From Bacteroidaceae bacterium (lineage in GTDB: Bacteria > Bacteroidota > Bacteroidia > Bacteroidales > Bacteroidaceae): a stretch of DNA of 49,302 bases. The notes under the pieces were generated by a model. The model worked only from the letters and a program-made list of their open reading frames with translations, ran no database searches and was not told the origin of the DNA. The DNA lies in NCBI GenBank assembly GCA_017526905.1, contig JAFXQT010000040.1:1-49302 (forward strand), given 5' to 3'. The number at the start of each line of letters is the position of its first letter. The first letter of the stretch is position 1. This document shows positions 5,784 through 21,593 of this stretch, piece after piece. The position numbers and the translations under genes were made by a program.

Positions 5784-7424
5784 ATGATGAAACGAATCAT
5801 CTTGAGTATGGTAGTGTTGCTTGCGGGCATCACTGCCGTTAGTGGTCAGACGCTGAGCTTGGACAGTTGCCGTGCGCTGGCCCTGCAGAACAATAAGGGG
5901 CTACGCATGAGTTCGCTCAAGCAGGAAGCTGCCCACTGGCAGCACAAGAGCGTGATGACCAATTATCTGCCTAAGGTATCGGCCGTGGGCACCTACCAGC
6001 GGACATCCAAAGAGGTGTCACTGCTGAACAAGGACCAAAAGCAGGCCCTATCCAACATGGGCACGAACATGGCAGGCGCTATAGGTCAGGGCGTGCAACA
6101 GGGAGCCGCTGCCATACAGCAGCAATGGACCAACCTGCCCGCCTCGCCCGAATTTCAGGCGCTGATGCAGAACCCGCAGGTACAGGCTCTCCTGGCACAG
6201 AACCCTCAACTGGCACAGATGCTGGCCAACCCCACTGCCCTGCAGCAGATGGCTGCTCCCTATCTGCAACAGGCTTCCACGGCATTCAACAGCATGCTCA
6301 CCAGCATGGCACAGATGGTAGATGGTGCCGGACAGAGCATCGTGGATGCCTTCCGCACCGACACCCGCAACATGACAGGCGCTGCCGTACTGCTGACACA
6401 GCCGCTCTACATGGGCGGAAAAATACGGGCCTACGACCGCATGACACGACTGGCCGAGGAGGCTGCCGGCGAACAGCACTCCATGGAAGAACAGGATCTG
6501 CTGGTAAGCGTGGACGAGGCATACTGGCGCATCGTTGCCCTGCAGAGCAAGAAACAACTGGCCGAAAGTTTCCTCAACACTGTGAAGAAGCTGGATGCTG
6601 ACGTGGACCGCATCATCGCAGAGGGTATGGCCACGAAGGCCGACGGGCTCTCGGTGAAAGTGAAGGTGAACGAGGCTGAAGTGGCCATGATACAGGTGGA
6701 GAACGGACTGACGCTCTCCCGCATGGCACTGGCGCAACTATGCGGCCTGCCCATGGACTCCGCTTTCGTCTTGGAAGATGAGGGGTCTGAGGTCACGGCC
6801 GACGGAGCCCGCAACCTTTCTGCAGTTGTCACGCCAAATGTGGAGCGTCCAGAAGCCGTTGAAACAGCACTGGCCCACCGCCACGAGCTGCGCGCATTGG
6901 ACATCGCAGCCGACGTGAAACGCGAAGAGGTGAAGGTGGCACGCGCTGAATATATGCCCAACCTGGCACTGACGGCAGGCTACCTGGTATCCAACCCCAA
7001 CGTATTCAATGGCTTCGAAAAGAAATTCAACGGCATGTGGAGTGCCGGATTGGTGCTGAAGGTGCCCATCGTTACTTGGGGCGACCGTATCTATAAGGTG
7101 CGACAGGCCAAGGCCGAAGCAGCCATGGCCGAAGCCCGCGTGGATGAAGTGCGGGAAAAGATAACCCTGCAAGTGAATCAGAATCAGCAGAAACTGCAGG
7201 AAGCACAGCAACGGCTGAGCACGGCATTGCAATCGCAGGAACAGGCCGACGAGAACCTGCGCATCGCCAACCTGGGATTGAAGGAAGGCGTGATTCCTGT
7301 GAGCAATGTACTGCAAGCGCAGACGGCCTGGCTCATGGCACACTCCACGCTGGTGGAGGCTGAAATAGACGTGCGTCTGGCCGACCTCTACCTCATGCGC
7401 GCCCTCGGCACTTTGCATTACTAA
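5784..7424 (+). CDS. TolC-family outer membrane efflux channel
   Basis: Outer-membrane factor that would form the exit duct for the HlyD and permease proteins encoded next. Signal peptide at residues 1-21 (cut before QTLSLDSCRALALQNN). TolC-like repeats include LLTQPLYMGGKIRAYDRM and, later, LKVPIVTWGDRIYKVRQAKAE. Residues ~83-195 are an unusual Gln/Ala/Met/Pro-rich insertion with repeated NPQ units (QNPQVQALLAQNPQLAQMLA) that interrupts the usual first helical hairpin. The start is one of two adjacent ATGs (5784 or 5787). The stop is 51 bp before hlyD. Transported substrate unknown. Confidence 0.9.
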   Translation: MMKRIILSMVVLLAGITAVSGQTLSLDSCRALALQNNKGLRMSSLKQEAAHWQHKSVMTNYLPKVSAVGTYQRTSKEVSLLNKDQKQALSNMGTNMAGAIGQGVQQGAAAIQQQWTNLPASPEFQALMQNPQVQALLAQNPQLAQMLANPTALQQMAAPYLQQASTAFNSMLTSMAQMVDGAGQSIVDAFRTDTRNMTGAAVLLTQPLYMGGKIRAYDRMTRLAEEAAGEQHSMEEQDLLVSVDEAYWRIVALQSKKQLAESFLNTVKKLDADVDRIIAEGMATKADGLSVKVKVNEAEVAMIQVENGLTLSRMALAQLCGLPMDSAFVLEDEGSEVTADGARNLSAVVTPNVERPEAVETALAHRHELRALDIAADVKREEVKVARAEYMPNLALTAGYLVSNPNVFNGFEKKFNGMWSAGLVLKVPIVTWGDRIYKVRQAKAEAAMAEARVDEVREKITLQVNQNQQKLQEAQQRLSTALQSQEQADENLRIANLGLKEGVIPVSNVLQAQTAWLMAHSTLVEAEIDVRLADLYLMRALGTLHY

Positions 7425-7475
7425 TGGCGCGCCCCCCCCTCTCCTACCCCACACTGAATATTAAAACCTACATAT

Positions 7476-8468
7476 ATGGCAAAGAAAAGAACCAGAGTCA
7501 GCAACCTGCTGATTATTGCATTAGTAATCGTGGTGGTGCTTGCACTCATCATCCTAATGGGTGCCCTCATGCCCAAGCCACAGGAGGTGCTGCAAGGCGA
7601 GGCCGAGACCACCGACTACCGCCTATCCTCAAAAGTGCCTGGCCGTGTCAAGGAACTGCGCGTGCAGGCCGGCGACAAGGTGAAGGCCGGCGACACACTC
7701 GCCATCCTGGAAGCACCCGAAGTGGAAGCCAAGATGGCACAGGCGCGCGCAGCTGAGAGTGCGGCGCAGGCCATCGAACTGAAAGCACAGAACGGCGCCC
7801 GCCAACAAGAGATTCAGGGCGCTTACGAATTGTGGCAAAAGGCAAAAGCCGGGCTTGATGTGGCCGAGAAGACCTTTGCACGTGTGGAACGCCTGTTCAA
7901 CGAAGGCGTCATTGCCGCACAGAAGCGCGACGAGGCACAGGCACAACTCCAAGCCATGCAGGCCACCGAGCGGGCGGCCAAAAGCCAATATGAAATGGCA
8001 CGCGAGGGCGCACGGCGCGAGGACAAGGCTGCCGCTCAGGCACAGGTGGCACGGGCACAAGGCGCCATCCAGGAGGTGAACGCCTACATGGCCGAGACCG
8101 TACTCACTGCCACTGCCGACGGCACCGTGACCGAGGTATTCCCCGAGATTGGCGAACTGGTGGGCACCGGCGCACCCATCATGAACGTGGCAATGGATGC
8201 CGACGTGAAGTTCATCTTCAACGTGCGCGAAGACTATCTGTCCGACCTGAAAGTAGGCTCCAACCTGCGCGTTTATCTGCCCGCATTGGACCGCGAGATT
8301 GATGTCAAGATTGCACGCATTGCTGTGATGGGAAGCTATTCCACCTGGAAAGCCACCAAGGCACTGGACCAGTACGACCTCAAGACCTTCGAGGTGGAAG
8401 CCCGCCCCGCGAAGGCGTCCGACGTGAAGGACGTGATAGCCGGCATGACGGCCATCATTAAGAAGTGA
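7476..8468 (+). CDS. HlyD-family membrane fusion (periplasmic adaptor) protein
   Basis: A 330-residue periplasmic adaptor linking an inner-membrane pump to TolC. One N-terminal membrane anchor (residues ~11-31), then a split lipoyl/biotinyl domain (VPGRVKELRVQAGDKVKAGDTL and TADGTVTEVFPEIGELVGTG) around a long Ala/Gln/Glu-rich helical hairpin, and a C-terminal beta-barrel part (LRVYLPALDREIDVKI). The stop overlaps the next start as GTGA, so the next protein is probably translationally coupled. Confidence 0.92.
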   Translation: MAKKRTRVSNLLIIALVIVVVLALIILMGALMPKPQEVLQGEAETTDYRLSSKVPGRVKELRVQAGDKVKAGDTLAILEAPEVEAKMAQARAAESAAQAIELKAQNGARQQEIQGAYELWQKAKAGLDVAEKTFARVERLFNEGVIAAQKRDEAQAQLQAMQATERAAKSQYEMAREGARREDKAAAQAQVARAQGAIQEVNAYMAETVLTATADGTVTEVFPEIGELVGTGAPIMNVAMDADVKFIFNVREDYLSDLKVGSNLRVYLPALDREIDVKIARIAVMGSYSTWKATKALDQYDLKTFEVEARPAKASDVKDVIAGMTAIIKK

Positions 8469-9676
8469 AAACCGAGGAACGAGACGTGAATAACCAAAGT
8501 AACATAAAATGGTGGTCGGCCATCGGTAAGATCTCAGAACGCGAGTTGCGGTCGTTTGCCAAACGCCCAATATTTCTCGTGTGCATGATCCTGGCCCCGC
8601 TGTTCTTCCTTGTGCTGTTTACATCTATGATGAACAGCGGTCTGCCCACCAAGCTGCCTGCCGCACTTGTCGATGAGGACAACACCATGGTGACACGCTC
8701 CATGGTGCGCATTCTCGGTTCCATGCAGGAAACGGAAATCGTAGCGCGCTATGACAACTTCACGCAGGCACGGCAGGCCATGCAGCGGGGCGAGATCTAC
8801 GCCATCTTCCGCATCCCGAAGGGAACCACCGAGGCCGCACTGACCAGCCGGCAGCCATGCATCGCCTTCTACACCAACGACTCCTACTACGTGGCCGCTT
8901 CACTGCTGATGAAGGACATGCGCAAGATGTCGGAGATGGCGGGCATCGCCATCACCCGCGAAACGCTACGTGCCAGGGGCGTTTCCGAAGGGGCTATCAT
9001 GCCTATACTACAGCCCATCGTGGTCGAATCACATCCGCTGGGCAATCCCTACCTGAACTACTCTGTTGTGCTGAGCAACCTCATTGTGCCTGGCATCCTC
9101 ATGCTGGTCATCCTGCTCACCACCAGTTACGCCTTGGGCAACGAGTGGAAGCGTGGCCGGCAAGGCAAACTGCTGCGTATGGCCGGCGGCAACACCTGGG
9201 TGGCTGTTGTGGGCAAGCTGCTGCCGCAGACGATGCTCTACACGCTGCTGTTCTGGTTCATCCAAGCCGTATTCTACATGTATTTAGGATTCCCCTGCGC
9301 CTGTGGCATGCCCCGCATGATGCTGTGGGGGTTCCTGGCCGTGCTGGCCTCGCAGGGACTGGGACTGTTCTTCTACGAACTGTTTGTGGGCGAGATGCGC
9401 ATGGCGCTCAGCGCCTGCTCGCTATGGGGTGTATTGTCGTTCTCGCTGGCCGGTTTCTCGTTTCCTGTCAGTGCCATGGTGCTGCCGCTGCAGTGGATGG
9501 CCAACCTCTTTCCCCTTCACCACTATTTCCAGCTCTACGAGGCACAAGCCCTCAACGGCTATCCAGCCATGTATGAGTGGCCCAGCATCGTGGCGTTGGT
9601 AGGTTTCGTGTTGCTGCCTGTGCTGCTCACCGGCCGCCTGCACGATGGTTTCCTTAATAAAGAATATGTGCCATGA
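8465..9676 (+). CDS. ABC-2 type transporter permease 1
   Basis: A 403-residue ABC-2 permease (YhiH/YbhS/YbhR-like). An N-terminal membrane helix (FLVCMILAPLFFLVLFTSMM) is followed by a large extracytoplasmic domain and a C-terminal block of about five helices, including YSVVLSNLIVPGILMLVILL. It starts with GTG at 8465, overlapping the hlyD stop by 4 bp; an in-frame GTG at 8486 is an alternative. It pairs with the following permease, probably as a heterodimer. No nucleotide-binding subunit is encoded beside it. Confidence 0.88.
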   Translation: MKTEERDVNNQSNIKWWSAIGKISERELRSFAKRPIFLVCMILAPLFFLVLFTSMMNSGLPTKLPAALVDEDNTMVTRSMVRILGSMQETEIVARYDNFTQARQAMQRGEIYAIFRIPKGTTEAALTSRQPCIAFYTNDSYYVAASLLMKDMRKMSEMAGIAITRETLRARGVSEGAIMPILQPIVVESHPLGNPYLNYSVVLSNLIVPGILMLVILLTTSYALGNEWKRGRQGKLLRMAGGNTWVAVVGKLLPQTMLYTLLFWFIQAVFYMYLGFPCACGMPRMMLWGFLAVLASQGLGLFFYELFVGEMRMALSACSLWGVLSFSLAGFSFPVSAMVLPLQWMANLFPLHHYFQLYEAQALNGYPAMYEWPSIVALVGFVLLPVLLTGRLHDGFLNKEYVP

Positions 9677-10854
9677 CTTGGTTTGTCAATATCTTTAAAG
9701 TGTGGTGGGACGAGTTGTGCGACATCGTCCGCGACGAGGGCATCATGATATTCATCATGCTGGTGCCACTGGCCTATCCGCTGCTCTACGCATTCATCTA
9801 TACCACCGAGACGCAGCGCGACCTGCCCGTGTGTGTCATTGACAACTGCCACAGCGCTCGCACCCGCGAGCTGATCCGCAAGGTGGATGCCACACCCGAG
9901 GTCATGGTGCGCGGCCATGTGGCCAACCTGGCCGAAGCGCAAGAGTTGCTCAAGCGCCGCGAAGTGAGCGGCATCATCGAGATTCCGGCCACCTTCGACC
10001 GCGACCTGGCACATGGGCGACAAGTGGTAGTGGGTGTCTATAGCGACCTCACTTCCATGCTCTACTACAAGCAACTGCTGCTGGGCGTGACCAATGTGGC
10101 ACAAGACATGAACCGCGACATCAAGGTGAACAACTATCTGCGCCCTGGCACTCGGCGCGAGGAGCAGGTGGCCCGAATGCCCATCGACTTCGAACACGTT
10201 CAGCTGTACAACCCACAGGGAGGCTTCGCCGCTTTCCTCATCCCGCCGGTGATGATGCTCATCCTGCAACAAACGCTCTTCCTGGGCATCGGCATGTCCA
10301 TGGGGCGCACACGCGAACGCAACCGCGGTTTGGTCATCCCGCCACGATCCGACTACAAGCATGTGGTCAGCGTGGTGTGGGGCAAGTCGCTGCTCTATTT
10401 CTGCCTCTACATGATACTGGCCGCCTATATGTGTGTGGTGGTGACACGCTGGTTCGGTCTGCCGCAGCTGATGCATGCCGATGCCTTCTTCGGCCTGATG
10501 GTGCCCTATTTGCTGGCCTGCATCTTCCTTGGCTTCTGCTTTTCGGCCTTCGTGTTCCGCCGTGAGGACTGCATCTTGCTGTTCGTTTTTATGAGCGTGC
10601 CCCTGCTATTCCTCACCGGCGTGAGCTGGCCTGGCGCCTCCATTCCAAAGGTATGGCAGTGGCTGGGTATGTTGTTCCCCTCGACCTTTGGTTGCAATGC
10701 CTATGTGCGAGCCGGCACCATGGGGGCCTCACTCGGCGATATTCGCCATGAAGTGATGGCTTTGTGGATTCAGGCCGGCGTGTATTTCCTGCTGGCTTGC
10801 CTCATGTACACCTGGGAAATACGCAGAGCCGTGGGCCGCTCGGTTCTGAACTGA
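9673..10854 (+). CDS. ABC-2 type transporter permease 2
   Basis: A 393-residue paralogue of the preceding permease, overlapping it by ATGA. Same plan: N-terminal helix (IMIFIMLVPLAYPLLYAFIY), an extracytoplasmic domain, then helices such as GGFAAFLIPPVMMLILQQTL and a final anchor (YFLLACLMYTWEIRRA). Last gene of the efflux operon; two hairpins follow it. The ATP-binding protein needed to power such a pump must be encoded elsewhere, or energy coupling is different. Confidence 0.88.
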   Translation: MTWFVNIFKVWWDELCDIVRDEGIMIFIMLVPLAYPLLYAFIYTTETQRDLPVCVIDNCHSARTRELIRKVDATPEVMVRGHVANLAEAQELLKRREVSGIIEIPATFDRDLAHGRQVVVGVYSDLTSMLYYKQLLLGVTNVAQDMNRDIKVNNYLRPGTRREEQVARMPIDFEHVQLYNPQGGFAAFLIPPVMMLILQQTLFLGIGMSMGRTRERNRGLVIPPRSDYKHVVSVVWGKSLLYFCLYMILAAYMCVVVTRWFGLPQLMHADAFFGLMVPYLLACIFLGFCFSAFVFRREDCILLFVFMSVPLLFLTGVSWPGASIPKVWQWLGMLFPSTFGCNAYVRAGTMGASLGDIRHEVMALWIQAGVYFLLACLMYTWEIRRAVGRSVLN

Positions 10855-10858
10855 CAAG

Positions 10859-10882
10859 AGGCCGGTCGCAAAACGCCGGCCT
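10859..10882 (+). terminator. Hairpin just after the efflux operon
   Basis: AGGCCGG and CCGGCCT form a 7-bp stem around a 10-nt loop, starting 4 bp after the permease stop. A short TTTT run lies 8 bp further on. It may be a weak terminator or an RNA-stability hairpin. Confidence 0.5.
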
Positions 10883-10894
10883 TGCACACCTTTT

Positions 10895-10960
10895 AGGCAC
10901 GATTCCTGATTCGGACATAGGCAATAAATGCCGACACATCAGTCATCGTGCCTTTTTTTT
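10895..10960 (+). terminator. Long intrinsic terminator between the efflux and rhamnose operons
   Basis: AGGCACGAT (10895-10903) pairs with ATCGTGCCT (10945-10953) and runs into eight Ts. Inside it, CTGAT pairs with ATCAG, and TCGG with CCGA or GGCA with TGCC, so the arm is nearly continuous over 59 nt. This insulates the rhamnose promoter, which begins 7 bp later. Confidence 0.85.
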
Positions 10961-10966
10961 GGACTT

Positions 10967-11001
10967 TTTGTATGGCGGTTTCGGGTTTTTGTATAAATTT
11001 G
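10967..11001 (+). promoter_or_regulatory. Promoter of the rhamnose operon
   Basis: TTTG at 10967-10970 (-33 like), 23 bp, then TAAATTTG at 10994-11001, a match to the Bacteroidetes -7 consensus TAnnTTTG. This gives an untranslated leader of about 30 nt. I see no clear AraC/RhaR-type operator repeat upstream, because the terminator leaves little room. Confidence 0.75.
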
Positions 11002-11037
11002 CACAGCAAATACGACAAAAACCTAAACCGCACAACT

Positions 11038-12468
11038 ATGTGTAGCACATATTATCTGGCGGTGGACCTCGGTGCCACCAGCGGTCGCACGGTTCTGGCC
11101 ACATTTGGCGACGGCCGCGTGACGATGCGCGAGTTCACCCGTTTCAAGAACCCACAGATTCCCCTTGGCGGCCATATTTTCTGGGATCTGCCACACCTCT
11201 ACAACGAAATAGTCGATGCCCTGCGCAAAGTGAAGGCCGAAGGCATCACGCTGACCAGCATCGGCATAGACACCTGGGGCTGCGATGTAGCCTTCTTCGG
11301 ACGCGACGGCCAACTGCTTGGGCTTCCCTACTGCTATCGCGACCCGCACACCGATGGTGCCATGGAACGTTTCTTTGCCGAACAGATGCCTCAGAAGGAA
11401 TTGTACGAGCGCACCGGCATCCAGTTCATGCCCTTCAACACGCTGTTCCACCTGGACACATTAAGGCGCGAGGGATGTACGGCACTGGCAGAGGCCGACA
11501 AGATACTGTTCATACCCGATGCACTGATCTATATGCTTACGGGCGAGACTGTATGCGAATACACCGTGGCCTCGACCTCACAGATGCTCAATCCGAACCT
11601 GGGTGATCTCGACCCCGCCATTCTCGCCACACTGAACCTTGGGCGCGACAAGTTTGGCCGGATGGTGCAACCAGGCCAACAGGTAGGTGTGCTCAGCACT
11701 CAAGTACAGGAGGTCACCGGACTGGGTGCAGTGCCCATTGTGGCGGTGGGCAGTCATGACACGGCATCGGCCGTGGCCGCTGTGCCAGCCGCCAACGGCA
11801 ACTACGCCTATCTGAGCTGCGGCACGTGGAGCCTGTTGGGCATAGAGAGTCCTAAGCCCATCATCACATCCGATAGCTACCGGCACAACTTCACCAACGA
11901 GGGCGGCCTGGACGGAACCATCCGTTTTCTGAAGAACATCACAGGCCTGTGGATTTTCGAGCAGTGTCGCAAGGAGTGGATAGCCACCATGCCCGATGCC
12001 ATTCCGGCCGATGTGAACGAATTGAATGCGCAAAGCCTCACTTCCATATGTCAGAGCCTCATCAACCCCGACGACCCGCGTTTCGCCCATCCCGCATCCA
12101 TGACGGCTGCCATCTGTGCCTATCTGACAGAGACAGGGCAGCCACTGCCACAGACACCGGCCGACTATGTCCGTGTCATCTTCCGCTCGCTTGCTGCCCG
12201 CTATGCTGAGATTATCGGCATACTGCGCCACATAGCCCCCGTAGATATCCAGCGGTTGCACGTCATCGGCGGTGGCTCGCGCAATGAGTTCCTCATGCAG
12301 TTTGCAGCCGACGCCCTCCAGTTGCCGGTCATCGCCGGTCCGCAGGAAGGCACGGCACTGGGCAATGCCTTGGTGCAGGTACGTGCCGCAGGGCACGTCG
12401 GCTCACTGGCCGACATGCGTGCCATCATCAGTCAGAGCGTCGAACTGCGCACCTTTATCCCTTCATAA
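11038..12468 (+). CDS. rhaB: L-rhamnulokinase
   Basis: FGGY-family sugar kinase, ATP + L-rhamnulose to L-rhamnulose 1-phosphate. The N-terminal phosphate-binding loop is AVDLGATSGR, and the substrate-side Asp lies in SIGIDTWGCDV. The second domain has PIVAVGSHDTASAVAAVP, AYLSCGTWSLLGIE and the adenosine motif VIGGGSRNEFLMQ. 476 residues, close to the family norm. I start at ATG 11038 because the promoter box lies upstream of it; an in-frame extension to 10948 would overlap the terminator and promoter. First gene of the rhamnose operon (rhaK position in Bacteroides nomenclature). Confidence 0.95.
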   Translation: MCSTYYLAVDLGATSGRTVLATFGDGRVTMREFTRFKNPQIPLGGHIFWDLPHLYNEIVDALRKVKAEGITLTSIGIDTWGCDVAFFGRDGQLLGLPYCYRDPHTDGAMERFFAEQMPQKELYERTGIQFMPFNTLFHLDTLRREGCTALAEADKILFIPDALIYMLTGETVCEYTVASTSQMLNPNLGDLDPAILATLNLGRDKFGRMVQPGQQVGVLSTQVQEVTGLGAVPIVAVGSHDTASAVAAVPAANGNYAYLSCGTWSLLGIESPKPIITSDSYRHNFTNEGGLDGTIRFLKNITGLWIFEQCRKEWIATMPDAIPADVNELNAQSLTSICQSLINPDDPRFAHPASMTAAICAYLTETGQPLPQTPADYVRVIFRSLAARYAEIIGILRHIAPVDIQRLHVIGGGSRNEFLMQFAADALQLPVIAGPQEGTALGNALVQVRAAGHVGSLADMRAIISQSVELRTFIPS

Positions 12469-12513
12469 CCTCATCACAGTACAATCTAATAAACCTCATA
12501 ACCTCTCACCCCT

Positions 12514-13764
12514 ATGAAAGAGCAACTGATTCAGCAATCCTACGAGATTGCACGCGAGCGCTACGCCGCCATCGGAGTAGATACCGACAAGGCCATCGAA
12601 CAACTGGAAAAGACCCAGATATCCCTGCACTGCTGGCAAACAGACGATGTAGTGGGCTTTGAGCGCAACGATGCGCTGAGCGGAGGAATCCAAACCACCG
12701 GCAACTATCCCGGACGTGCCCGCAACATCGACGAGGTGCGCCAAGACATCGAATTCGTCAAGACACTCCTGGCCGGCAACCATCGCCTGAACCTGCATGA
12801 GATCTATGGCGATTTTGGCGGCAAGTTCGTGGATCGCGACCAGGTAGAGGTAAAACACTTCCAGAGCTGGATGGACTGGGCCAAAGCCAACAACATGAAG
12901 CTTGACTTCAACTCGACCAGTTTCTCCCACCCCAAGAGCGGCGAACTCACCCTCTCCAATCCCGACCCCGCCATCCGCGAATTCTGGATTGAACACACCA
13001 AGCGCTGTCGCCGCATCGCCGATGCCATGGGCAAGGCACAAGCTGACCCGTGCATCATGAACATCTGGGTACACGACGGCTCGAAGGACCTCACCGTGCA
13101 GCGCCAGAAATACCGCGAGATACTGGTGGATAGCCTTGACAAGATTATGGAAGAGCAACTGCCCGACATGAAGGCCTGTTTCGAAGCCAAGCTTTTTGGC
13201 ATCGGTCTGGAAAGCTACACTGTGGGCAGCCACGACTTCTACACCGCCTACTGCGCTACCCGCAAGCAGATGTACACGCTCGACACCGGCCACTATGAGC
13301 AGACAGAGAACGTGTCCGACTTCGTCTCGACCCTGCTCATGTACGTGCCCGAGCTGATGTTGCACGTTTCACGTCCCGTGCGCTGGGACAGCGATCACGT
13401 CACCATCATGAACGACCAGACGCTCGACCTCTTCAAGGAGCTCGTTCGTGCCAACGGCCTCCATCGTGCCCATATCGGACTCGACTACTTTGATGCCAGC
13501 ATCAACCGCATCGGTGCCTATATCATTGGCTCACGCGCCACGCAAAAGTGCGTCCTCCAGGCCCTCCTTGAGCCCCTTGCCCTCCTGCGCCAATACGAGG
13601 ACAACGGTCAGAACTTCGAACGCCTCGCACTCCTCGAAGAAGCCAAGTCTCTCCCCTTCGGTGCCGTGTTTGACTATTTCAACCTCAAGAACAACGTCCC
13701 CGTGGGCGAAGAGTACATCCCTTGCATCCAAGACTATGAGAAGCGCGTAACCAGCAAACGGTAA
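12514..13764 (+). CDS. rhaA: L-rhamnose isomerase
   Basis: Converts L-rhamnose to L-rhamnulose, a metal-dependent TIM barrel. 416 residues against 419 in E. coli. The metal and active-site strands are recognisable: NLHEIYGDFGGKFVDRD, MNIWVHDGSKD, YTLDTGHYEQTENVSDFVS and LHVSRPVRWDSDHV. It lies 45 bp after the kinase with no terminator and 3 bp before the next gene. It corresponds to rhaI in the B. thetaiotaomicron rhaKIPAO naming. Confidence 0.96.
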   Translation: MKEQLIQQSYEIARERYAAIGVDTDKAIEQLEKTQISLHCWQTDDVVGFERNDALSGGIQTTGNYPGRARNIDEVRQDIEFVKTLLAGNHRLNLHEIYGDFGGKFVDRDQVEVKHFQSWMDWAKANNMKLDFNSTSFSHPKSGELTLSNPDPAIREFWIEHTKRCRRIADAMGKAQADPCIMNIWVHDGSKDLTVQRQKYREILVDSLDKIMEEQLPDMKACFEAKLFGIGLESYTVGSHDFYTAYCATRKQMYTLDTGHYEQTENVSDFVSTLLMYVPELMLHVSRPVRWDSDHVTIMNDQTLDLFKELVRANGLHRAHIGLDYFDASINRIGAYIIGSRATQKCVLQALLEPLALLRQYEDNGQNFERLALLEEAKSLPFGAVFDYFNLKNNVPVGEEYIPCIQDYEKRVTSKR

Positions 13765-13767
13765 AGC

Positions 13768-16017
13768 ATGGAAGAGAGCATTAAGGAGAGGCTCATCACG
13801 AAGTGCCAGCAATTGACCGAAGGATGGCGCGCACGAGCCGTGAATGTAGTGGCATGGCTGACTAAGGACGTCGAAGGGCGCCTGCTGCCACTCATGAACG
13901 GCAGTGCCGATGTGCGGCGTATTCCGCAGTGCGGCCGGCAGACCACGGCCCTGATAGAGGGACTGCTGCAACAATTGCGACCCTATTATGACGAGCTCTT
14001 GCTGAATCCCGATACAAACACTGCTACAGAAGAGGTCCTGTACACCCAGAGGGAGGTGCAGGCCTTTCACTTCGCCGAATTGAACACAGCCACTGAACGC
14101 CGTGTCCAAGCCGCCTTCAGCAGAATGATGAAGGCTGTCGGCAACACGCGGGCAAAGAACCTCTTAGACAAGCACTTTAGCCAGTATCGTGATACAGAGT
14201 ATTGGCTTAACAACCCTGACAGCATTTGGCAGTGGTTTGGTGTTGGCAAGACGACCGTAGGACATATCCAGCAGTTCCTCAGCGAGTTCAAGGAGGCATA
14301 TCTGGCACTCACCCACGGCACGGAGAGCACCCCCAGCGATAGCAGCGAAACCGACGAAACGCCGCTGCCCGATTTGGATTACCCGTTTCTGACGCCTGAA
14401 GAACAGGACTTCGTGACTACGTTCTGGAATGCAGAAAAGCGCTACCCCGTGTTCTACATCGCCTTACGCTTCCTGCAGCAAGCCACCGACCGCCGCACAC
14501 AAACCTTCGTCCGCGTCAACGGCATCAACGGGAAGCACGAAACCCTTGCGGCACTGTCCGAAGAGTTCGGTCTGACATTCGAGCGTACGCGCCAGATCTC
14601 CAAGTTGAAGGTAGACAAAGCGCAAAATCTCCCCGTGTGGGACCTCGACCGCTGGGGTGCGTTGGATTTCTTCCACAAGCCGCTGCTCACCGAGGCCAAC
14701 ACACGCTGGAAAGAGATCCAGGCGCTTGAGCACGTCGAAGACCTGAGTTTCCACTCCGCATTAGCCATCCTTTCTGCCTTGCTCCCCTTAGAGATTATTG
14801 CCCTGCGTGCCGACGGCTACAAAGCCAATGCCCGACGGTGCAAGGCCACTGAGTACGAGCCTCCTTGTGTGCTCTTTGCCTACGACAGCAGCCTGAACTA
14901 CTTCTCCTTTGCACATTTCCTGCGAGACATCGGCCACGAGGCTATGCTGCAACGCATTGAGGACAAATCTTGCACCCTGCAAGCCCTCACCGAGGCATAC
15001 TTCCAGCCAAATGCCAGCGAACAACAGCGACAAGCAATCCTTGGAATGCTACGGGAGGTCATACAGATGTTCCCCGGGGTGGAGGTCCTGCACGATACGA
15101 TCGTGTTCAGCAGCAACCACATTAACTATACCGAAGACATCTATCAGATCATAGCCCGGAACGGCAAAGCCATGACAGTCGAGGAAATCTTCGCGGAATT
15201 CAAGGCTATGCACCCCAACGACCACCACACCAACAGCGGCTTCCTGCGCTCCTATATGTGGCATGACGAACGCATCGAAGCCGTGGGGCGCAAATCGACC
15301 TATCAGCTACGGGAGTGGGAGTTGTTTTCCGGCAGTCTCACTCAGCTGGCAGCACACCTGCTCAAGGATGAAGCAGAGCCATTGCCGCTTACCGAGCTGG
15401 TCCGGCGCATGAAAGAGCATCGCGGCAACACAACCCCCAAGAGCTGTGAAAGCAGTATCTACCTGGGCTTCGCGGCTGGAACGCTGCAATATTTCTTCAC
15501 CACCGAACACACTGCTTCCACAGCCTATGTCGGACTTGCAGAAAGAGCCTATCCAGCCCCCTACTGGGTGTCAACGATGAGCGTGAACGGCGCCGTCAAG
15601 AGCATGCACCGTTTCCTTACCGAACGCGGACACTGGCCATACGCAGCAGCTTCCGATGTCGTTGAGGAGCGCCTTTATTACATTCTACGCAAATTCTCTC
15701 AGCATGACCACGTAACCAGCAAGGAAGCAGCCCTCTACAAACGGGGCATGGCCGATGTCCCGCCCTACCAATATCCCCACAACGAACGGGAAGCCATCTT
15801 CGTGAAGCGTTGCCAAGCCGTCAAGTCCTTCTGGAAAGAGCACCATAGGCAACCAACGTCAGCCGAGGATCCGTTCCTGGCCAAATGGTATCGCTACACA
15901 CTTCACAAGTTCAACCAGTTGCGCGGTTTCCGCCAGTATCACTTCAAACAAATCAGACATAGGTCGGCAGCCAAGCCATCCCAACAACTGTCATTAGACT
16001 TCGCAGATGCCGACTGA
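13768..16017 (+). CDS. Large multi-HTH protein with sigma-region-4-like, alpha-CTD-like and HARE-like segments
   Basis: A 749-residue soluble protein with no signal peptide; I cannot assign it to a named family. Residues ~255-287 (TLAALSEEFGLTFERTRQI) closely match the sigma-70 region 4 helix-turn-helix pattern TLEE.G..F.vTRERIRQI. Residues ~50-70 (RIPQCGRQTTALIEGLLQQL) and ~154-173 (WFGVGKTTVGHIQQFL) look like RNA polymerase alpha-CTD helix-hairpin segments. Residues ~452-517 end in GRKSTYQLREWE, like a HARE winged helix, and ~523-580 looks like a second winged helix. The C-terminal third is helical and basic. It begins 3 bp after the rhaA stop, so is probably coupled. No separate AraC-type RhaR gene is present in the window. 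A transcription-related role is inference. Confidence 0.75.
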   Translation: MEESIKERLITKCQQLTEGWRARAVNVVAWLTKDVEGRLLPLMNGSADVRRIPQCGRQTTALIEGLLQQLRPYYDELLLNPDTNTATEEVLYTQREVQAFHFAELNTATERRVQAAFSRMMKAVGNTRAKNLLDKHFSQYRDTEYWLNNPDSIWQWFGVGKTTVGHIQQFLSEFKEAYLALTHGTESTPSDSSETDETPLPDLDYPFLTPEEQDFVTTFWNAEKRYPVFYIALRFLQQATDRRTQTFVRVNGINGKHETLAALSEEFGLTFERTRQISKLKVDKAQNLPVWDLDRWGALDFFHKPLLTEANTRWKEIQALEHVEDLSFHSALAILSALLPLEIIALRADGYKANARRCKATEYEPPCVLFAYDSSLNYFSFAHFLRDIGHEAMLQRIEDKSCTLQALTEAYFQPNASEQQRQAILGMLREVIQMFPGVEVLHDTIVFSSNHINYTEDIYQIIARNGKAMTVEEIFAEFKAMHPNDHHTNSGFLRSYMWHDERIEAVGRKSTYQLREWELFSGSLTQLAAHLLKDEAEPLPLTELVRRMKEHRGNTTPKSCESSIYLGFAAGTLQYFFTTEHTASTAYVGLAERAYPAPYWVSTMSVNGAVKSMHRFLTERGHWPYAAASDVVEERLYYILRKFSQHDHVTSKEAALYKRGMADVPPYQYPHNEREAIFVKRCQAVKSFWKEHHRQPTSAEDPFLAKWYRYTLHKFNQLRGFRQYHFKQIRHRSAAKPSQQLSLDFADAD

Positions 16018-16115
16018 CGTCACGCTCCCCACGACGGTACAAGCAACATCCCCCTCGAGCATTCATGCCCAAGCACTATGGCAAAGAACAACAACTTTCA
16101 AACCTCAACAACACT

Positions 16116-17480
16116 ATGAGTAAAACATCATCTCTGAAGAGTACGGTTGCAGTATCACTGAATAACTATCTCGACGCGGGCGCCATCGTGGCAGGTGCCA
16201 GCGGCATCACATTGTGGCAGAACTACCTTGGCCTGAGCGAGCTTCATCTCGGATGGCTCAATGCCATCAGTGCCAATGCCCTGGGCGCAGCCATCGGTGC
16301 CATCATCGGCGGTTTCCTGGCCGACAAGTTCGGGCGCAAGTTTATCTTCACATACAACCTGCTGGTCTATATGCTGGGCGTGCTCGTAGTCATGCTCTCC
16401 ACCAACTTCCCCATGCTGCTGTGTGGTTTCCTCATCACAGGCATCTCCGTGGGTGTCGGCGTGCCGGCTTCATGGACCTATATCTCGGAAAGTTCCGAAG
16501 TGCACAACCGCGGCCGCAACATCTGCATCTCACAGATGTCGTGGGGGCTGGGCCCGATGATTATCCTGTTGTTCGGTATGCTGTTTGCGCCGGGCGGCTA
16601 CCTTTATAGTTTTGTTGAGTCTGTAGCGCACGCTGTCATTGGTGCCGATGCGGCCGAAAGCGCCGTACAGGTATTCTCCTCGCGCGTGGTGTTCTTCACC
16701 CTCTTCGTCGTGGCCTTCATCGCCTGGACGCTGCAACGCCAGCTGGAAGAGAGCCAGGAATTCCAAAAGAGCAAGGCACCTCAGCAGGCATCCTCCGCCA
16801 CCTCTGAGGTGGCCGAAGGCGGTGTCGGCATTATTGACAACATCAAGGCCCTGTTCACCAACAAGATTGCCGTTCGCACCGTCACGTTCCTTGCCGTCAT
16901 CTACCTCACCTGGAACCTTGTGGCCTCTGTGATGGGCTTCTTCCAGCCCCACATATACGAAACGGCCGGTGGCCTGAGCAACGAGTATGCCAATATGCTC
17001 AGTTGCGTGGGCTGGGGCGTCGTAGTGGCCGTTACGTTCGTCCTTTCATTTCTTATCGACCGCCTGCCGCACAAGCTATTCTATATTTTAGGTCTGATTG
17101 CCGCCCTGGGCACATGGGCGGTCATCATCAAAGGCGTCAACGGCATCGGCAGCCTGTGGGCATTCTCCATCCTGTGGGGCATCAATGGCGGCCTGAGTGT
17201 CCAAATCTTCTACGCCCTCTGGGGCAGCGAACTCTTCCCCGCCAAGTTCCGTGCCGGTGCCCAAGGTCTGATGTTCTTCATCGTTCGCGGTCTCTCCGCT
17301 GCCTGGGGCATCATCTTCACCTATATCTACGGCGAGAACGGCGAGGGCTTCACTCGTGCCGCCTGGTGCATGATTGTACTCCTGCTCATCTCCCTCATCG
17401 TCGGTGTGCTCGGAGCCCCCAACACCCGTGGCAAGTCGCTCGCACAAATTACGCGCGAGCGCTATGGCGAGGACCTCTGA
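16116..17480 (+). CDS. MFS sugar transporter, probable L-rhamnose permease
   Basis: A 454-residue, 12-helix major facilitator. The conserved loop after helix 2 is GGFLADKFGRKF, and the N-terminal half begins SLNNYLDAGAIVAGASGITL. I chose the ATG at 16116 because the 17 codons upstream carry no conserved sequence. Its place between isomerase and aldolase genes matches the permease (rhaP) position in Bacteroides rhamnose operons, so L-rhamnose is the likely substrate. This is a sugar-porter type MFS and is unrelated to E. coli RhaT. Confidence 0.85.
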   Translation: MSKTSSLKSTVAVSLNNYLDAGAIVAGASGITLWQNYLGLSELHLGWLNAISANALGAAIGAIIGGFLADKFGRKFIFTYNLLVYMLGVLVVMLSTNFPMLLCGFLITGISVGVGVPASWTYISESSEVHNRGRNICISQMSWGLGPMIILLFGMLFAPGGYLYSFVESVAHAVIGADAAESAVQVFSSRVVFFTLFVVAFIAWTLQRQLEESQEFQKSKAPQQASSATSEVAEGGVGIIDNIKALFTNKIAVRTVTFLAVIYLTWNLVASVMGFFQPHIYETAGGLSNEYANMLSCVGWGVVVAVTFVLSFLIDRLPHKLFYILGLIAALGTWAVIIKGVNGIGSLWAFSILWGINGGLSVQIFYALWGSELFPAKFRAGAQGLMFFIVRGLSAAWGIIFTYIYGENGEGFTRAAWCMIVLLLISLIVGVLGAPNTRGKSLAQITRERYGEDL

Positions 17481-17526
17481 CCGATAAACAGAACAACCAT
17501 CTTCAAACAATAGAAAACACATCAAT

Positions 17527-18348
17527 ATGAACAGTATTCTTGATTCCCGCCCCGCGCTGAAAGCAGCCGTGGACGATGTGGCCGAAGTGGCCGGCTACCT
17601 CTGGCAGAAGGGGTGGGCCGAACGCAACGGCGGCAACATCACCGTAAACATCACCGAACATGTCGACGATGCCATCCGCCACATGCCGGCCATCTCCGAG
17701 GTCATTCCCATCGGCACCACCCTGCCCCACATCAAAGGGTGCTATTTCTACTGCAAAGGCACAGGCAAACGCATGCGCGACATGGCCCGCTGGCCCATGC
17801 AGAACGGCAGCATCATCCGCATCCTGGACGATTGTGCATCGTATGTCATCATTGCCGACCAGCCCGTGATGCCCACCAGCGAGTTGCCCTCGCACCTCTC
17901 CATGCACGACTATCTCATCAGCACCGGTTCCAAATACAAAGCCAGCGTACACACCCACCCCATCGAGCTGGTGGCCATGAGCCACAACCCTGCGTTCCTG
18001 GGCAAGGATGTGCTCACCCGGATCTTGTGGTCCATGATTCCTGAAACGCTGGCCTTTGCACCGCTCGGGCTGGGCGTGGTGCCCTATGCCCTGCCCGGTT
18101 CGGTCAAACTGGCCGAAGCCACTCTTGAACAGATAAAGGACTACGACGTGGTGCTGTGGGAGAAGCACGGAATCACCGCCGTAGGCCAGGATGTGATGGA
18201 TGCCTTCGACCAGATCGACGTGCTCAACAAGGCGGCCACCATCTATCTGCGTGCCAAGTCAATGGGCTTTGAACCCGATGGCATGACCGACGAGGCCATG
18301 AAAGAAGTACAAGACGTATTCCACCTTCCTAAGACACGCCCCTGCTAA
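17527..18348 (+). CDS. rhaD: L-rhamnulose-1-phosphate aldolase
   Basis: Class II zinc aldolase that splits L-rhamnulose 1-phosphate into dihydroxyacetone phosphate and L-lactaldehyde. 273 residues, the same length class as E. coli RhaD. Seen: WAERNGGNITVNI at the substrate loop, TSELPSHLSMH with the catalytic Glu, the zinc ligands in KASVHTHPIEL, and the third His in WEKHGITAVG. It lies 46 bp after the permease and 2 bp before the esterase gene. The lactaldehyde reductase often found next (rhaO/fucO) is absent here. Confidence 0.95.
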   Translation: MNSILDSRPALKAAVDDVAEVAGYLWQKGWAERNGGNITVNITEHVDDAIRHMPAISEVIPIGTTLPHIKGCYFYCKGTGKRMRDMARWPMQNGSIIRILDDCASYVIIADQPVMPTSELPSHLSMHDYLISTGSKYKASVHTHPIELVAMSHNPAFLGKDVLTRILWSMIPETLAFAPLGLGVVPYALPGSVKLAEATLEQIKDYDVVLWEKHGITAVGQDVMDAFDQIDVLNKAATIYLRAKSMGFEPDGMTDEAMKEVQDVFHLPKTRPC

Positions 18349-18350
18349 CC

Positions 18351-19175
18351 ATGCGAACCCACATTTTCATGGCTCTGCTGACCTGTATGGCAGTTGGAGT
18401 CCGGGCACAAATCGTCAATCCCGTCACCGAGCTGTGGCCCAAGCAGGTGCCTGGAGCCACCGAGACCAAAGCCGCTCATGTGACACGCGAGGCCCGCGGC
18501 GACATGTTCTATCTGGACAAAGTAACCAACCCCACGCTGGAGGTGTTCAAGCCCGAAGCCGAGAAGGCTAACGGCAAGGCCGTGGTGGTTTGTCCCGGTG
18601 GGGCCTACGCCGTTCTGGCCTATAACAAAGAGGGGCAGGAAGTGGCCCGATGGCTCAACAGCCAAGGCTTTACGGCCTACGTCCTGGCCTATCGCGTGCC
18701 CAACAACCGGCCGGGCGCCTTGCAGGATGCACAGCGCGCCATCCGGTTGGTGCGCGCTGCAGGATTCCAGCAGGTGGGCATCATCGGCTTCTCAGCCGGT
18801 GCCAGCCTCTCCTGCCGTGCCGCCACACGCTATGCCGACCAGACTTATCCGCCGCAGGACGGCGCCGACAGCCTCTCCTGCCGTCCGGATTTTGGCCTGC
18901 TCATCTATCCCGCCTATCTGGACGAAGGCCCCAACGGAACGCTCACGCCCGAACTGAAGGTGACCAAGGACACCCCACCACTCTTCGTGTTCGGCAACGA
19001 GGACGATGTCAAGTACGGCGCACCGTCATCCATGACCATCACCGATGCAATGCGGCGTGTCGGCGCACCCGTCGAGTTGCACTACCTCACCAAGGGTGGC
19101 CACGGCTACGGCATGCGCTATGGTTTGGGACTGGTATGGCCGAAACTGGCCGAAACATGGCTGAAGGGAATTTAG
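18351..19175 (+). CDS. Secreted alpha/beta-hydrolase, acetyl-xylan-esterase-like
   Basis: A 274-residue alpha/beta hydrolase with a signal peptide (cut near VRAQIVNPV). It has the oxyanion-type VVVCPGGAY strand, nucleophile elbow GFSAGAS, the acid in GNEDDVKYG and His in KGGHGYGMR. The family includes carbohydrate esterases that remove acetyl groups. It lies 2 bp after rhaD, in the slot where Bacteroides has the oxidoreductase. This suggests it deacetylates rhamnose-containing glycans before uptake, which is inference. A second secreted esterase is at 47345-48271. Confidence 0.85.
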   Translation: MRTHIFMALLTCMAVGVRAQIVNPVTELWPKQVPGATETKAAHVTREARGDMFYLDKVTNPTLEVFKPEAEKANGKAVVVCPGGAYAVLAYNKEGQEVARWLNSQGFTAYVLAYRVPNNRPGALQDAQRAIRLVRAAGFQQVGIIGFSAGASLSCRAATRYADQTYPPQDGADSLSCRPDFGLLIYPAYLDEGPNGTLTPELKVTKDTPPLFVFGNEDDVKYGAPSSMTITDAMRRVGAPVELHYLTKGGHGYGMRYGLGLVWPKLAETWLKGI

Positions 19176-19190
19176 AGCTCTATCCACAAC

Positions 19191-19655
19191 ATGTCCCGCT
19201 TCATCCTATCCGCCCTATGCCTTCTGGCAGCCACCTTTGTGTGCGGCCAGAAGGTGTATCGCGGCACATCGTGCTACAACACCGATATCATCTGCAATGT
19301 CAGTGACGGAAAGCTGTACAAAGGCAACTCCGTGTATCAGACCGACGTGTTGGTGCGCTTCGACGGCACCAGCCTCTACCGCGGCACCAGCGTGTATAGC
19401 AGCGACATCCTCTTCACCTACCGCAACGGCCACATCTACCGCGGACACTCTCCGTACCAGTCGGACATTGTTGCCACCTGGCGCGACGGCAAGATGTACC
19501 GTGCCACCTCGCCCCACCAGTCGGACATTCTCTTCACCTACCGCAACAACAAGGTCTATCGCCGCAACAGCAGCTACCAGAGCGATGTTCTGCTCACCAC
19601 CTCGGCACGCATCCATCCCCTGCTGCTCTATTTCATTCTCTTCGCGGCAGCATAG
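19191..19655 (+). CDS. Secreted protein of six 20-residue YRGTS-Y-SD repeats
   Basis: A 154-residue protein with a signal peptide (residues 1-20, ending FVCGQ). Six contiguous repeats of exactly 20 residues follow (21-140), consensus K-hydrophobic-Y-R-G-T-S-x-Y-x-S-D-I-L-F-x-Y-R-D-G, and then a short hydrophobic tail (HPLLLYFILFAAA). The regular period with alternating aromatic and hydrophobic residues suggests a beta-solenoid or a small beta-propeller. I recognise no named family. It starts 15 bp after the esterase, so is the last gene of the rhamnose operon. Surface or periplasmic location is inferred. Confidence 0.8.
   Translation: MSRFILSALCLLAATFVCGQKVYRGTSCYNTDIICNVSDGKLYKGNSVYQTDVLVRFDGTSLYRGTSVYSSDILFTYRNGHIYRGHSPYQSDIVATWRDGKMYRATSPHQSDILFTYRNNKVYRRNSSYQSDVLLTTSARIHPLLLYFILFAAA
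19251..19610 (+). repeat. Six in-frame 60-bp coding repeats
   Basis: Coding repeat units at 19251, 19311, 19371, 19431, 19491 and 19551, each 60 bp. Units 3 and 5 are the closest at DNA level (both contain ACATTCTCTTCACCTACCGC or a near copy), which points to duplication within the gene. Confidence 0.85.
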
Positions 19656-19684
19656 GCACGGCTGGCCGCTTTTCATGCCCGAGC

Positions 19685-19702
19685 GTCCGCTTTTTGCCGG
19701 AC
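19685..19702 (+). terminator. Possible terminator of the rhamnose operon
   Basis: GTCCG-CTTTTTGC-CGGAC is a 5-bp stem 30 bp after the last operon stop, followed by T-rich sequence (TTTTCTTTCAGTTTTTT). The stem is short, so this is only moderately supported. Confidence 0.45.
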
Positions 19703-19760
19703 AAGGAGGCTTTTCTTTCAGTTTTTTAGCCATGCAGGCTTCTGTTTCGGGATTTTTACC

Positions 19761-19768
19761 TACTTTTG
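19761..19768 (+). promoter_or_regulatory. lysS promoter -7 box
   Basis: TACTTTTG followed by CACC, a perfect TAnnTTTG match 32 bp before the lysS start. No clear -33 TTTG at the usual distance. Confidence 0.65.
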
Positions 19769-19799
19769 CACCGGAAATCAAGTAAAAACAGATAAACGC

Positions 19800-21593
19800 A
19801 TGAATATACTGGAACTGAGCGAGCAGGAGATTGTTCGCAGAAACAACCTGGAACAGCTGCGCCAGCTGGGCATCAACCCCTACCCCGCAGCCGAGTACCC
19901 CGTAACTGCATGGAGCACGGACATCGTCCGCGACTTCGTTGACCTGCCCATCATCGGCAAGGACGAGGAAGGCAACGACGTGCGCCAGACGGCCACCCCC
20001 GACAACAGCCCCATCGTGAGCATCGCCGGACGCATCATGAGCAAAAGCATCATGGGTAAGGCCGGCTTTGCCAAGTTGCAGGACTCCAAGGGCCGCATTC
20101 AAGTGTATGTGCAGCGCGACGCCATCTGCCCCGACGAGAACAAGGATCTCTACAACATCGTGTTCAAAAAACTGCTCGACCTGGGCGACTTCATCGGCGT
20201 GAAAGGCTATGTGTTCCGCACCAAGACGGGCGAGATCAGCGTTCATGTCATGGAAATGACCGTACTCTCCAAGAGTCTCAAGCCTCTGCCCGTGGTCAAG
20301 ACCGATGCCGACGGCAACGTGTACGACAGTTTTGACGACCCCGAACTGCGCTACCGCCAACGCTACGTGGACCTGGTGGTGAACGCCGGCGTGAAGGAGA
20401 CGTTCGAGAAGCGCGCCGTCATCGTCCGCACCATGCGCCGCATCCTCGACGAGGCTGGCTACACCGAGGTTGAAACGCCCATCCTGCAGAGCATCGCCGG
20501 CGGAGCATCGGCACGCCCCTTCATGACACACTTCAACGCCCTCAACCAGGACATGTACATGCGTATCGCCACCGAACTCTACCTCAAGCGCCTCATCGTG
20601 GGCGGCTTCGAGGGTGTTTATGAAATGGGCAAGAACTTCCGCAACGAGGGCATGGACAAGACCCACAACCCCGAGTTCACCTGCATGGAACTGTACGTTT
20701 CCTACAAGGACTACAACTGGATGATGTCCTTCACCGAGCACATGCTCGAGGAAATTTGCACCGCCGTCAACGGCAAGCCCGAAGTGGAGATCGACGGCAA
20801 CATCATCTCCTTCAAGGCACCCTACCGCCGCCTGCCCATTCTCGACGCCATCAAGGAAAAGACCGGCTTCGACTGCGAGGGCAAGAGCGAGGACGACATA
20901 CGCGCCTTCTGCCGCGAGAAAGGCATGGAAGTGGACGACACCATGGGCAAGGGCAAGCTCATCGACGAACTCTTCGGCGAGTTCTGCGAAGGCTCCTTCA
21001 TCCAGCCCACATTCATCACCGACTACCCCGTCGAGATGTCGCCCCTCACCAAAATGCACCGTTCCAAGCCCGGCCTTACCGAGCGCTTCGAACTGATGGT
21101 GAATGGCAAGGAACTGGCCAACGCTTACTCCGAGCTGAACGATCCCATCGACCAGGAGGAACGCTTTGTTGAACAGATGCGACTGGCCGACAAGGGCGAC
21201 GACGAGGCCATGATCATCGACCACGATTTCCTGCGTGCCCTGCAGTATGGCATGCCCCCCACCTCGGGTATCGGCATCGGCATAGACCGCCTCACCATGC
21301 TCATGACGGGCAAGTTCGCCATCGGCGAAATCATGCTCTTCCCACAGATGAAGCCTGAGAAGCGCGCCCCGCGCGACAAGACCGAAGCCTTCACGGCACT
21401 CGGCTTCCACGAGGACATCGTGCCCATCCTTTACAAGTGCGGCTACAATCTGGTCACCGACCTCCAAGGCACCAAGGCACAGAAGCTTCAACAGCAAATC
21501 GGCGAAGTCATCAAGAAGTACAAACTCGACATCCAAAAGCCCTCGGTACCCGAACTGGAGCAAATCCTCACGCCCTTCAACCCTGAGGCCTAA
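19800..21593 (+). CDS. lysS: Lysyl-tRNA synthetase, class II
   Basis: Charges tRNA-Lys. An N-terminal OB-fold anticodon-binding domain (VSIAGRIMSKSIMGKAGFA) precedes the class II core: motif 2 in KNFRNEGMDKTHNPEF and motif 3 in GIGIDRLTMLM. 597 residues, about 90 more than E. coli LysS. The extra C-terminal part (TALGFHEDIVPILYKCGYN onward) reads like the helix-hairpin-helix extension common in Bacteroidetes. First gene of a lysS-gpsA-pgi-HAD group. Confidence 0.96.
   Translation: MNILELSEQEIVRRNNLEQLRQLGINPYPAAEYPVTAWSTDIVRDFVDLPIIGKDEEGNDVRQTATPDNSPIVSIAGRIMSKSIMGKAGFAKLQDSKGRIQVYVQRDAICPDENKDLYNIVFKKLLDLGDFIGVKGYVFRTKTGEISVHVMEMTVLSKSLKPLPVVKTDADGNVYDSFDDPELRYRQRYVDLVVNAGVKETFEKRAVIVRTMRRILDEAGYTEVETPILQSIAGGASARPFMTHFNALNQDMYMRIATELYLKRLIVGGFEGVYEMGKNFRNEGMDKTHNPEFTCMELYVSYKDYNWMMSFTEHMLEEICTAVNGKPEVEIDGNIISFKAPYRRLPILDAIKEKTGFDCEGKSEDDIRAFCREKGMEVDDTMGKGKLIDELFGEFCEGSFIQPTFITDYPVEMSPLTKMHRSKPGLTERFELMVNGKELANAYSELNDPIDQEERFVEQMRLADKGDDEAMIIDHDFLRALQYGMPPTSGIGIGIDRLTMLMTGKFAIGEIMLFPQMKPEKRAPRDKTEAFTALGFHEDIVPILYKCGYNLVTDLQGTKAQKLQQQIGEVIKKYKLDIQKPSVPELEQILTPFNPEA

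Follow-up and report, generated by a model that had tools for sequence, protein, structure and literature searches.

What does a protein assembled from RNA polymerase-like modules do inside a sugar catabolic operon? This question was raised by a 49,302-nucleotide stretch of DNA from a Bacteroidaceae bacterium (GenBank assembly GCA_017526905.1, contig JAFXQT010000040.1, positions 1 to 49,302 of the forward strand; hereafter the window), in which an open reading frame (ORF) of 749 amino acids (aa), here called gene X (13768..16017, forward strand, +), lies within an L-rhamnose operon, between the isomerase gene rhaA and a sugar permease gene. Its product carries segments resembling the C-terminal domain of the RNA polymerase alpha subunit (alpha-CTD), sigma factor region 4, HARE winged helices and helicase-associated (HA) repeats. 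It was found that the place of X in the operon is a cargo hotspot in the genus, and that X is a fast-evolving member of a sparse family, several members of which have defence genes as neighbours. On this basis we tentatively favour, short of an even chance, the interpretation that X is cargo of an anti-mobile-element type, a stand-alone alpha/sigma/HARE/HA chimera in a lineage-specific hotspot.

The rhaA–rhaT junction is a cargo hotspot

In the window, X is bordered on the left by rhaA (L-rhamnose isomerase, 12514..13764, +; NF002203 above cut-off) and on the right by a gene for a major facilitator superfamily (MFS)-type sugar permease, called rhaT here (16065..17480, +; MFS models, sub-threshold). 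In a sample of the genus, 86 of 139 genomes had rhaA, in 89 copies, all of which were mapped. The slot between rhaA and the following transporter gene was regarded as occupied when the gap was at least 600 bp and as empty when it was <600 bp. An MFS-type rhaT followed 49 copies of rhaA, with 37 junctions empty and 12 occupied. A drug/metabolite transporter (DMT)-type gene followed another 33 copies, and none of these junctions was occupied, all gaps being at most 289 bp. Comparison of 12/49 with 0/33 occupied junctions gave a Fisher p of 0.001, a value that ignores relatedness and overstates independence, because the genomes are related. Two of the remaining rhaA copies were at a contig end, and five had no transporter seen in the piece; among these five junctions, PDC-M12A was found in two (L074, L124) and other genes in three.

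The 12 occupied MFS junctions held X in three cases, recognised anti-phage systems in two and LrgAB in five. X is alone in the slot of the window. The slot of genome G346 contains an HU-HIG protein, X, a 559-aa protein and LrgAB. In G497, a remnant of X shares the slot with genes for a methylase-like protein, a Zn-ribbon protein and a protein of 552 aa related to the 559-aa one; HU-HIG and an intact X follow rhaT in this genome. HU, DUF2971, the type I restriction-modification genes HsdMSR and AbiH were found in G502 (L066:6621-16342), and HU, a candidate PDC-M12A, an AAA_5/McrBC pair and a Y1 transposase-like gene in G378 (L068:7519-15129). The other occupied slots were those of G463 (a Y1-like gene), G235, G110 and G470 (LrgAB), G481 (HU with LrgAB-like sequence) and the two copies in G458 (a small ORF only in each). 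These results demonstrated that the rhaA–rhaT slot is a cargo hotspot which accepts anti-phage genes and is not a pure defence island. It also offers a handle on further cargo genes in the group, as unknown cargo can be read beside known cargo.

Some cargo genes other than X were also conspicuous. A protein of the HU-HIG type recurred, either heading the cargo on the rhaA side or just before X (L066:6621-7238, L068:7519-8136, L127, L124, L018:8231-8914 and L002:9136-9894; two copies recognised by Pfam and the rest by BLAST likeness), and may have a part in marking or organising the slot. The 559- and 552-aa proteins near X (L018:11280-12959 and L002:5937-7595) were 66% identical to each other, with no Pfam match. 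At the L124 junction, PDC-M12A was accompanied by two other genes unlike the AAA_5/McrBC pair.

X turns over and diverges faster than its neighbours

The copy of X after rhaA in G497 (L002:1784-2388) has undergone an internal deletion that left residues 1–155 and 703–749, and it is the copy after rhaT that is intact. In G282, a near-empty junction was observed with a 101-aa ORF that showed a 52% match to the methylase-like cargo. Between the window and G346, nonsynonymous divergence (dN) was 0.275 for X, 0.042 for rhaA and 0.078 for rhaT, and the proportion of synonymous differences (pS) was 0.68, 0.58 and 0.54, respectively, all of these divergence values being rough as synonymous sites were near saturation. 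The G+C content at third codon positions of X was below that of rhaA in all four genomes compared. X is thus fast-evolving relative to its neighbours.

Domain architecture of X

Scanned alone, X showed a weak sigma factor match, to region 4 of RpoH at residues 238–286 (E = 0.011, NCBIfam scan). A profile of 12 sequences including X (A1) matched sigma region 4 of SigA in the PDB with an E value of 2.2e-6. The local score of X against the sigma region 4 of its own genome was 75, and this was reached by 0 of 1000 shuffled sequences, the best of which scored 55. The segment (14479..14625, +) includes the ERxRQ motif of the sigma recognition helix, which is invariant or nearly so across the family, and the order of the modules is also kept. 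In a Pfam scan of ten relatives, sigma-4 was above the gathering score in one (E = 8.5e-6) and below it in three. The sigma region 4-like helix-turn-helix proposed in an earlier, sequence-only reading of X was confirmed by these results.

No Pfam alpha-CTD match was found in X itself. Bona fide alpha-CTDs (PF03118) were present in 2 of the ten relatives scanned (E = 3.4e-17 and 3.2e-10), and pairwise hhalign of X residues 18–75 (13819..13992, +) against the relatives' alpha-CTDs gave a probability of 83 and an E value of 8.6e-6, suggesting a derived alpha-CTD-like helix-hairpin-helix. Residues 125–178 (14140..14301, +), a possible second, eroded hairpin, aligned in the same register without significance (probability 0.2, E = 0.32). 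Two alpha-CTD-like hairpins had been read from the sequence before, and the first of them was supported by this alignment whereas the second was not.

The next segments resemble HARE winged helices. PF05066 matched X at residues 522–560 (E = 0.024, under the gathering score), within the putative second winged helix (residues ~522–590, 15331..15537, +), and it matched five of the ten relatives, every one under the gathering score, with a best E value of 4.2e-4 on the second winged helix of relative P0003. The putative first winged helix (residues ~452–517, 15121..15318, +) was assigned by reading alignment A1, and PF05066 fell on it in relatives with sub-threshold E values of 0.011 and 0.026. 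For the HARE-type winged helices proposed previously, matches to the expected family were found, at sub-threshold scores. The earlier account had not included the HA-like repeats that probably make up the C-terminal region (residues ~600–740, 15565..15987, +). In this region, PF03457 matched 2 of the ten relatives (E = 4.7e-5 and 9.1e-4, both under the gathering score), and profile A1 matched PDB entry 2kta with an E value of 0.065. A plasmid protein named 'helicase associated domain' matched the relative in L103 with an E value of 4e-8.

Pfam, NCBIfam and PADLOC returned no catalytic family for X, and residues 300–450 were without domain assignment. Pfam and NCBIfam scans found no AraC-type match and no sigma region 2 in X, and on the latter ground X was rejected as a sigma factor. 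Because neither a recognised catalytic domain nor sigma region 2 was found, X is not expected to function as a sigma factor, and its modules are best read as those of a non-catalytic, probably DNA-binding alpha/sigma chimera.

X belongs to a sparse and patchy family

The identity to X was 61% for the protein of G346, 58% for G497, 48% for G483, 46% for G354 and 43% for G426, and the members in G714 and G663 matched X through profiles only, with no direct BLASTP match at E 1e-3. A profile of distant relatives with Schlafen-linked members, from which X was left out, matched X with an E value of 2.3e-56, and a corresponding X-free profile with Dnd-linked members matched it with an E value of 1.8e-11; these matches cover parts of X residues 119–726. 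When both sets were joined, X was matched over residues 92–727 (E = 1.7e-54). Reversed decoy sequences gave no match to the distant-relative profiles.

Members of the family were found in at least 15 of the 139 genus genomes, in at least 13 of 399 genomes of the taxonomic family by single-sequence search, one of them (G321) through the sigma segment only, and in at least 6 of 296 and 5 of 395 genomes of two phylum samples; all of these counts include the genome of the window and are lower bounds, as few candidates per genome were scored (for example, 2 in the 395-genome sample). The family is thus sparse and patchy. X as a visibly phage-borne gene was rejected, as no pattern match for it was found in IMG/VR and relative P0006 was without a match in phages. 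A visibly plasmid-borne X was likewise rejected, as it had no match among plasmids. When three relatives were compared with plasmids, one gave a partial match, one none and one a partial match; the last of these was located on a Segatella copri plasmid, and no gene listed beside it there was named as a defence gene.

Genomic contexts of the relatives

We mapped 25 family loci, the window included, with G321 (sigma-4 segment only), G583 (not recovered again in the mapping) and the G497 remnant left aside; a member in G396 (L021), whose gene is missing from the called ORFs by an overlap rule, was counted as solo. On visual inspection of the beginnings of the neighbouring proteins, 4 loci were rha-linked, 7 had defence or defence-like genes, the label 'defence-like' being our own judgement for four of them (G112, G222, G473, G424), and 14 appeared solo among core genes.

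In G391, the X-family gene is located between BrxL (PF13337, E = 1.3e-112) and a SIR2 protein, in a locus that also contains PglZ-4 (E = 1.2e-172) and BrxC (E = 1.5e-136). The whole locus (L026:7275-19418) is BREX-4-like (BrxC, PglZ-4, BrxL), with the X-family protein and the ThsA-like SIR2 protein as apparent extras. In G587 and G751, the X-family gene directly precedes a DndD/PbeC-like ATP-binding cassette (ABC) ATPase gene, which is followed by a DndH-like gene (L103:8250-14298 and L105:8146-15022). The ATPase and DndH-like pairs of the two genomes were 43% and 48% identical, and the DndH-like protein of G587 matched the C-terminal part of DndH. A DndD-related ABC ATPase beside a HerA/FtsK protein fused to DndE is described in PMC10853773, and the layout in G587 and G751 resembles that arrangement, the likeness being drawn without the DndE part. 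In one of L103 and L105, a DrmC-like protein of the phospholipase D type precedes the X-family gene.

An SLFN_AlbA_2 protein is encoded directly upstream of the X-family gene in G112, G222 and G473, with gaps of ~124, 75 and 3 bp (L024:6649-10867, L025:524-4729 and L110:8805-12515), and the two genes are a candidate two-gene unit. HerA-like, GHKL-ATPase and radical-SAM-like genes were found near the family member in G112 and G424 (L024:1013-6491 and L115:10393-15570). Their respective identities across this pair of genomes were 74, 39 and 67%, and they form a possible uncharacterised module, in which the radical-SAM match is sub-threshold; the family member of G424 matches by its C-terminal part only.

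The rhamnose operon of the window

The ORF of X is uninterrupted; its ATG lies 3 bases past the rhaA stop (13764), and 47 bases separate its own stop from the start of the permease gene (16065). The coordinates, length and spacing in the sequence-only reading were all exact. Its assignment of the operon to rhamnose was also right: rhaA and the rhamnulose-1-phosphate aldolase gene rhaD (17527..18348, +; NF002963) pass their NCBIfam cut-offs, the rhamnulokinase gene rhaB (10948..12468, +) matches TIGR02627 under its cut-off with an E value of 2.8e-141, and the permease match is sub-threshold. Promoter- and terminator-like patterns around X showed no excess over shuffled sequence, an Rfam scan of 10000–20000 gave 0 matches, and a repeat search of 13600–16300 returned short two-copy repeats and nothing more. 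It is likely that X is co-transcribed with rhaA. The source assembly, which is 79% complete, contains one copy of X. At E 0.01, the family profile had a single further match in this genome, to region 4 of a sigma factor resembling the primary one. Directly preceding rhaB in the same orientation (5784-10854) are TolC-like, HlyD-like and two ABC-2 permease-like genes.

Weighing the explanations

Does X control the operon in which it lies? The sequence-only reading had offered two roles, a regulator that took over control of the rhamnose genes or a mobile cargo gene. In the former, X would activate or repress the rha promoters as an alpha/sigma-like protein in place of the AraC-type regulator RhaR. 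This would agree with its probable co-transcription with rhaA across the 3-bp gap and with the location of three of its four closest relatives (G346, G497 and G354) in rha loci. Moreover, no RhaR match at E 1e-40 was found in these three genomes or in that of the window (G000). The location of the relatives is neutralised, because the third-closest (G483) and fifth-closest (G426) lie outside rha loci, and a search for rhaA gave no match in G483. The absence of RhaR was rejected as evidence for a takeover, as RhaR orthologues, taken as proteins with 71% identity or more to the AraC-type regulator adjoining rhaB in sister genome G496, are rare in the genus with or without X, being found in just 7 of the 139 genomes, two of them with an internal stop; weaker AraC matches (35–51% identity) were found elsewhere, any match at all in 42 of 139, and the match at E 1e-40 was also missing in 8 of the other 16 genomes examined. 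In addition, most rha operons of the genus are without X (a family member in 15 of 139 genomes, rhaA in 86 of 139), their slot being mostly empty or otherwise filled. Where X is present in a rha locus its position differs: after rhaA in the window, after the HU gene in G346, after rhaT in G497 and before rhaD in G354, and the rhaA-side copy of G497 is a deleted remnant. The takeover by X is not supported by these results, and we consider it improbable, the least likely of the explanations weighed here. As for the mobile cargo gene, the cargo part is borne out by the turnover of the slot and the anti-phage genes held there in some sister genomes; mobility is not, X having none but rha genes as neighbours in the window.

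X might instead be a general nucleoid- or RNA polymerase-associated regulator of host genes, with no link to defence and with a gene that moves around the genome. Promoter binding by alpha-CTD and sigma-4 modules is known from other proteins, and the 14 loci that seem solo among core genes would be expected of such a regulator. A conflict gene fits better than a housekeeping regulator with the patchy presence (15/139 in the genus, 5/395 in one phylum sample), the fast divergence and the defence operons around several relatives, and a general regulator therefore appears rather unlikely. It could also be supposed that X is inert or selfish cargo, kept only because the slot is tolerant. A variety of unrelated genes is indeed accommodated by the slot, and decay is seen in the remnants, but the window copy of X is intact, and across the family both ERxRQ and the order of the modules are conserved, implying that most copies are probably under selection; we regard inert cargo as quite improbable. 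Several results also weigh against the favoured interpretation of X as anti-mobile-element-type cargo. Recognised anti-phage systems fill only 2 of the 12 occupied junctions, against LrgAB in 5 and small ORFs alone in 2; more than half of the family loci (14/25) look solo; none of the PADLOC models matches X; and the HARE matches, being under the curated threshold, are weak. A pooled PADLOC scan at E 1e-8 gave 131 models with neighbours of X and 24 with controls, and this was not counted as a test. The sets comprised 78 neighbours (77 of 114 listed, mostly the nearest two on each side, and one Schlafen-type gene) and 78 of 105 control ORFs; the 131 models are inflated by redundant DndD/PbeC models, the number of proteins matched is not given by the listing, and the control matches (SspA/DndA, helicases) look like housekeeping enzymes, so that the comparison is not a clean one.

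If X is indeed anti-mobile-element-type cargo, its sigma and alpha modules might bind RNA polymerase or DNA resembling a promoter (a -35 or UP-like element), and its HARE/HA modules might sense the state of the DNA. X would then silence or mark incoming DNA, with its expression riding on the rhamnose transcript. In the multi-gene relatives, the X-like protein may hand DNA to BREX-4, to DndD and a DndH-like ATPase, or to Schlafen-AlbA_2 partners. A more specific form of this idea is an immune adaptor, an RNA polymerase look-alike that would find foreign DNA by its promoters (sigma-4/alpha-CTD mimicry) and its modification state (HARE/HA), with the solo form silencing invader transcription and the BREX-4, DndD–DndH-like and Schlafen forms passing DNA to effectors. 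We consider this form speculative and unlikely. If it were true, the solo X of the window would be expressed while the host feeds on rhamnose, and promoter mimicry would be a new way of foreign-DNA recognition by bacteria. A defence role is made directly testable by the contexts described above, namely BREX-4 next to SIR2, DndD next to a DndH-like ATPase, Schlafen-AlbA_2 and the sugar-operon hotspot.

Comparison with known systems

MzaA of the MZA anti-phage system (NF041931) resembles X in that a sigma-region-4 segment is found in an anti-phage protein, and PMC9523054 provides a precedent for a sigma-4-bearing protein in such a system. The MzaA model matched the sigma-4 segment of three relatives weakly (E = 1.7e-5, 2.1e-4 and 2.5e-3), with no match to X itself in NCBIfam and PADLOC scans. 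MzaA differs in that the match is confined to the sigma-4 segment, near the C terminus of its model. In PglW, a defence protein of BREX, an alpha-CTD-like helical domain is followed by winged helices (PMC12839542), a layout reminiscent of X; PglW differs by a kinase and an inactive AAA+-like domain in addition. HARE has been proposed as a reader of modified DNA in other proteins (PMC10853773).

With the sigma-70 family, X shares the region 4 helix-turn-helix with ERxRQ. Region 2 was not found in X by the scans above, so no promoter opening is expected. The delta subunit of RNA polymerase in low-GC Gram-positive bacteria, a short subunit with an acidic tail, has a HARE-type winged helix, to which X gave a match below the cut-off (TIGR04567, residues 523–558, E = 0.064), and X differs from it in having many other modules and no significant delta match.

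The closest comparison is with the HARE-HTH proteins of Aravind and Iyer, who reportedly noted in 2012 (Cell Cycle 11:119) a combination of RNA polymerase alpha-subunit and sigma-factor features. To our knowledge, no function was assigned to these proteins, and literature searches, judged by title and the start of the abstract, found no role for alpha/sigma/HARE chimeras. We take them to be very probably the same family as X, since they join alpha-CTD, sigma region 4 and HARE in one protein and X has segments resembling all three. X differs in its eroded alpha-CTD and its stand-alone place in a sugar operon. The combination itself would thus have been recorded already in 2012; what is new here is a variant that stands alone and has its alpha-CTD eroded, the rhaA–rhaT hotspot, and the links of the family to BREX-4, DndD/DndH-like and Schlafen-type loci.

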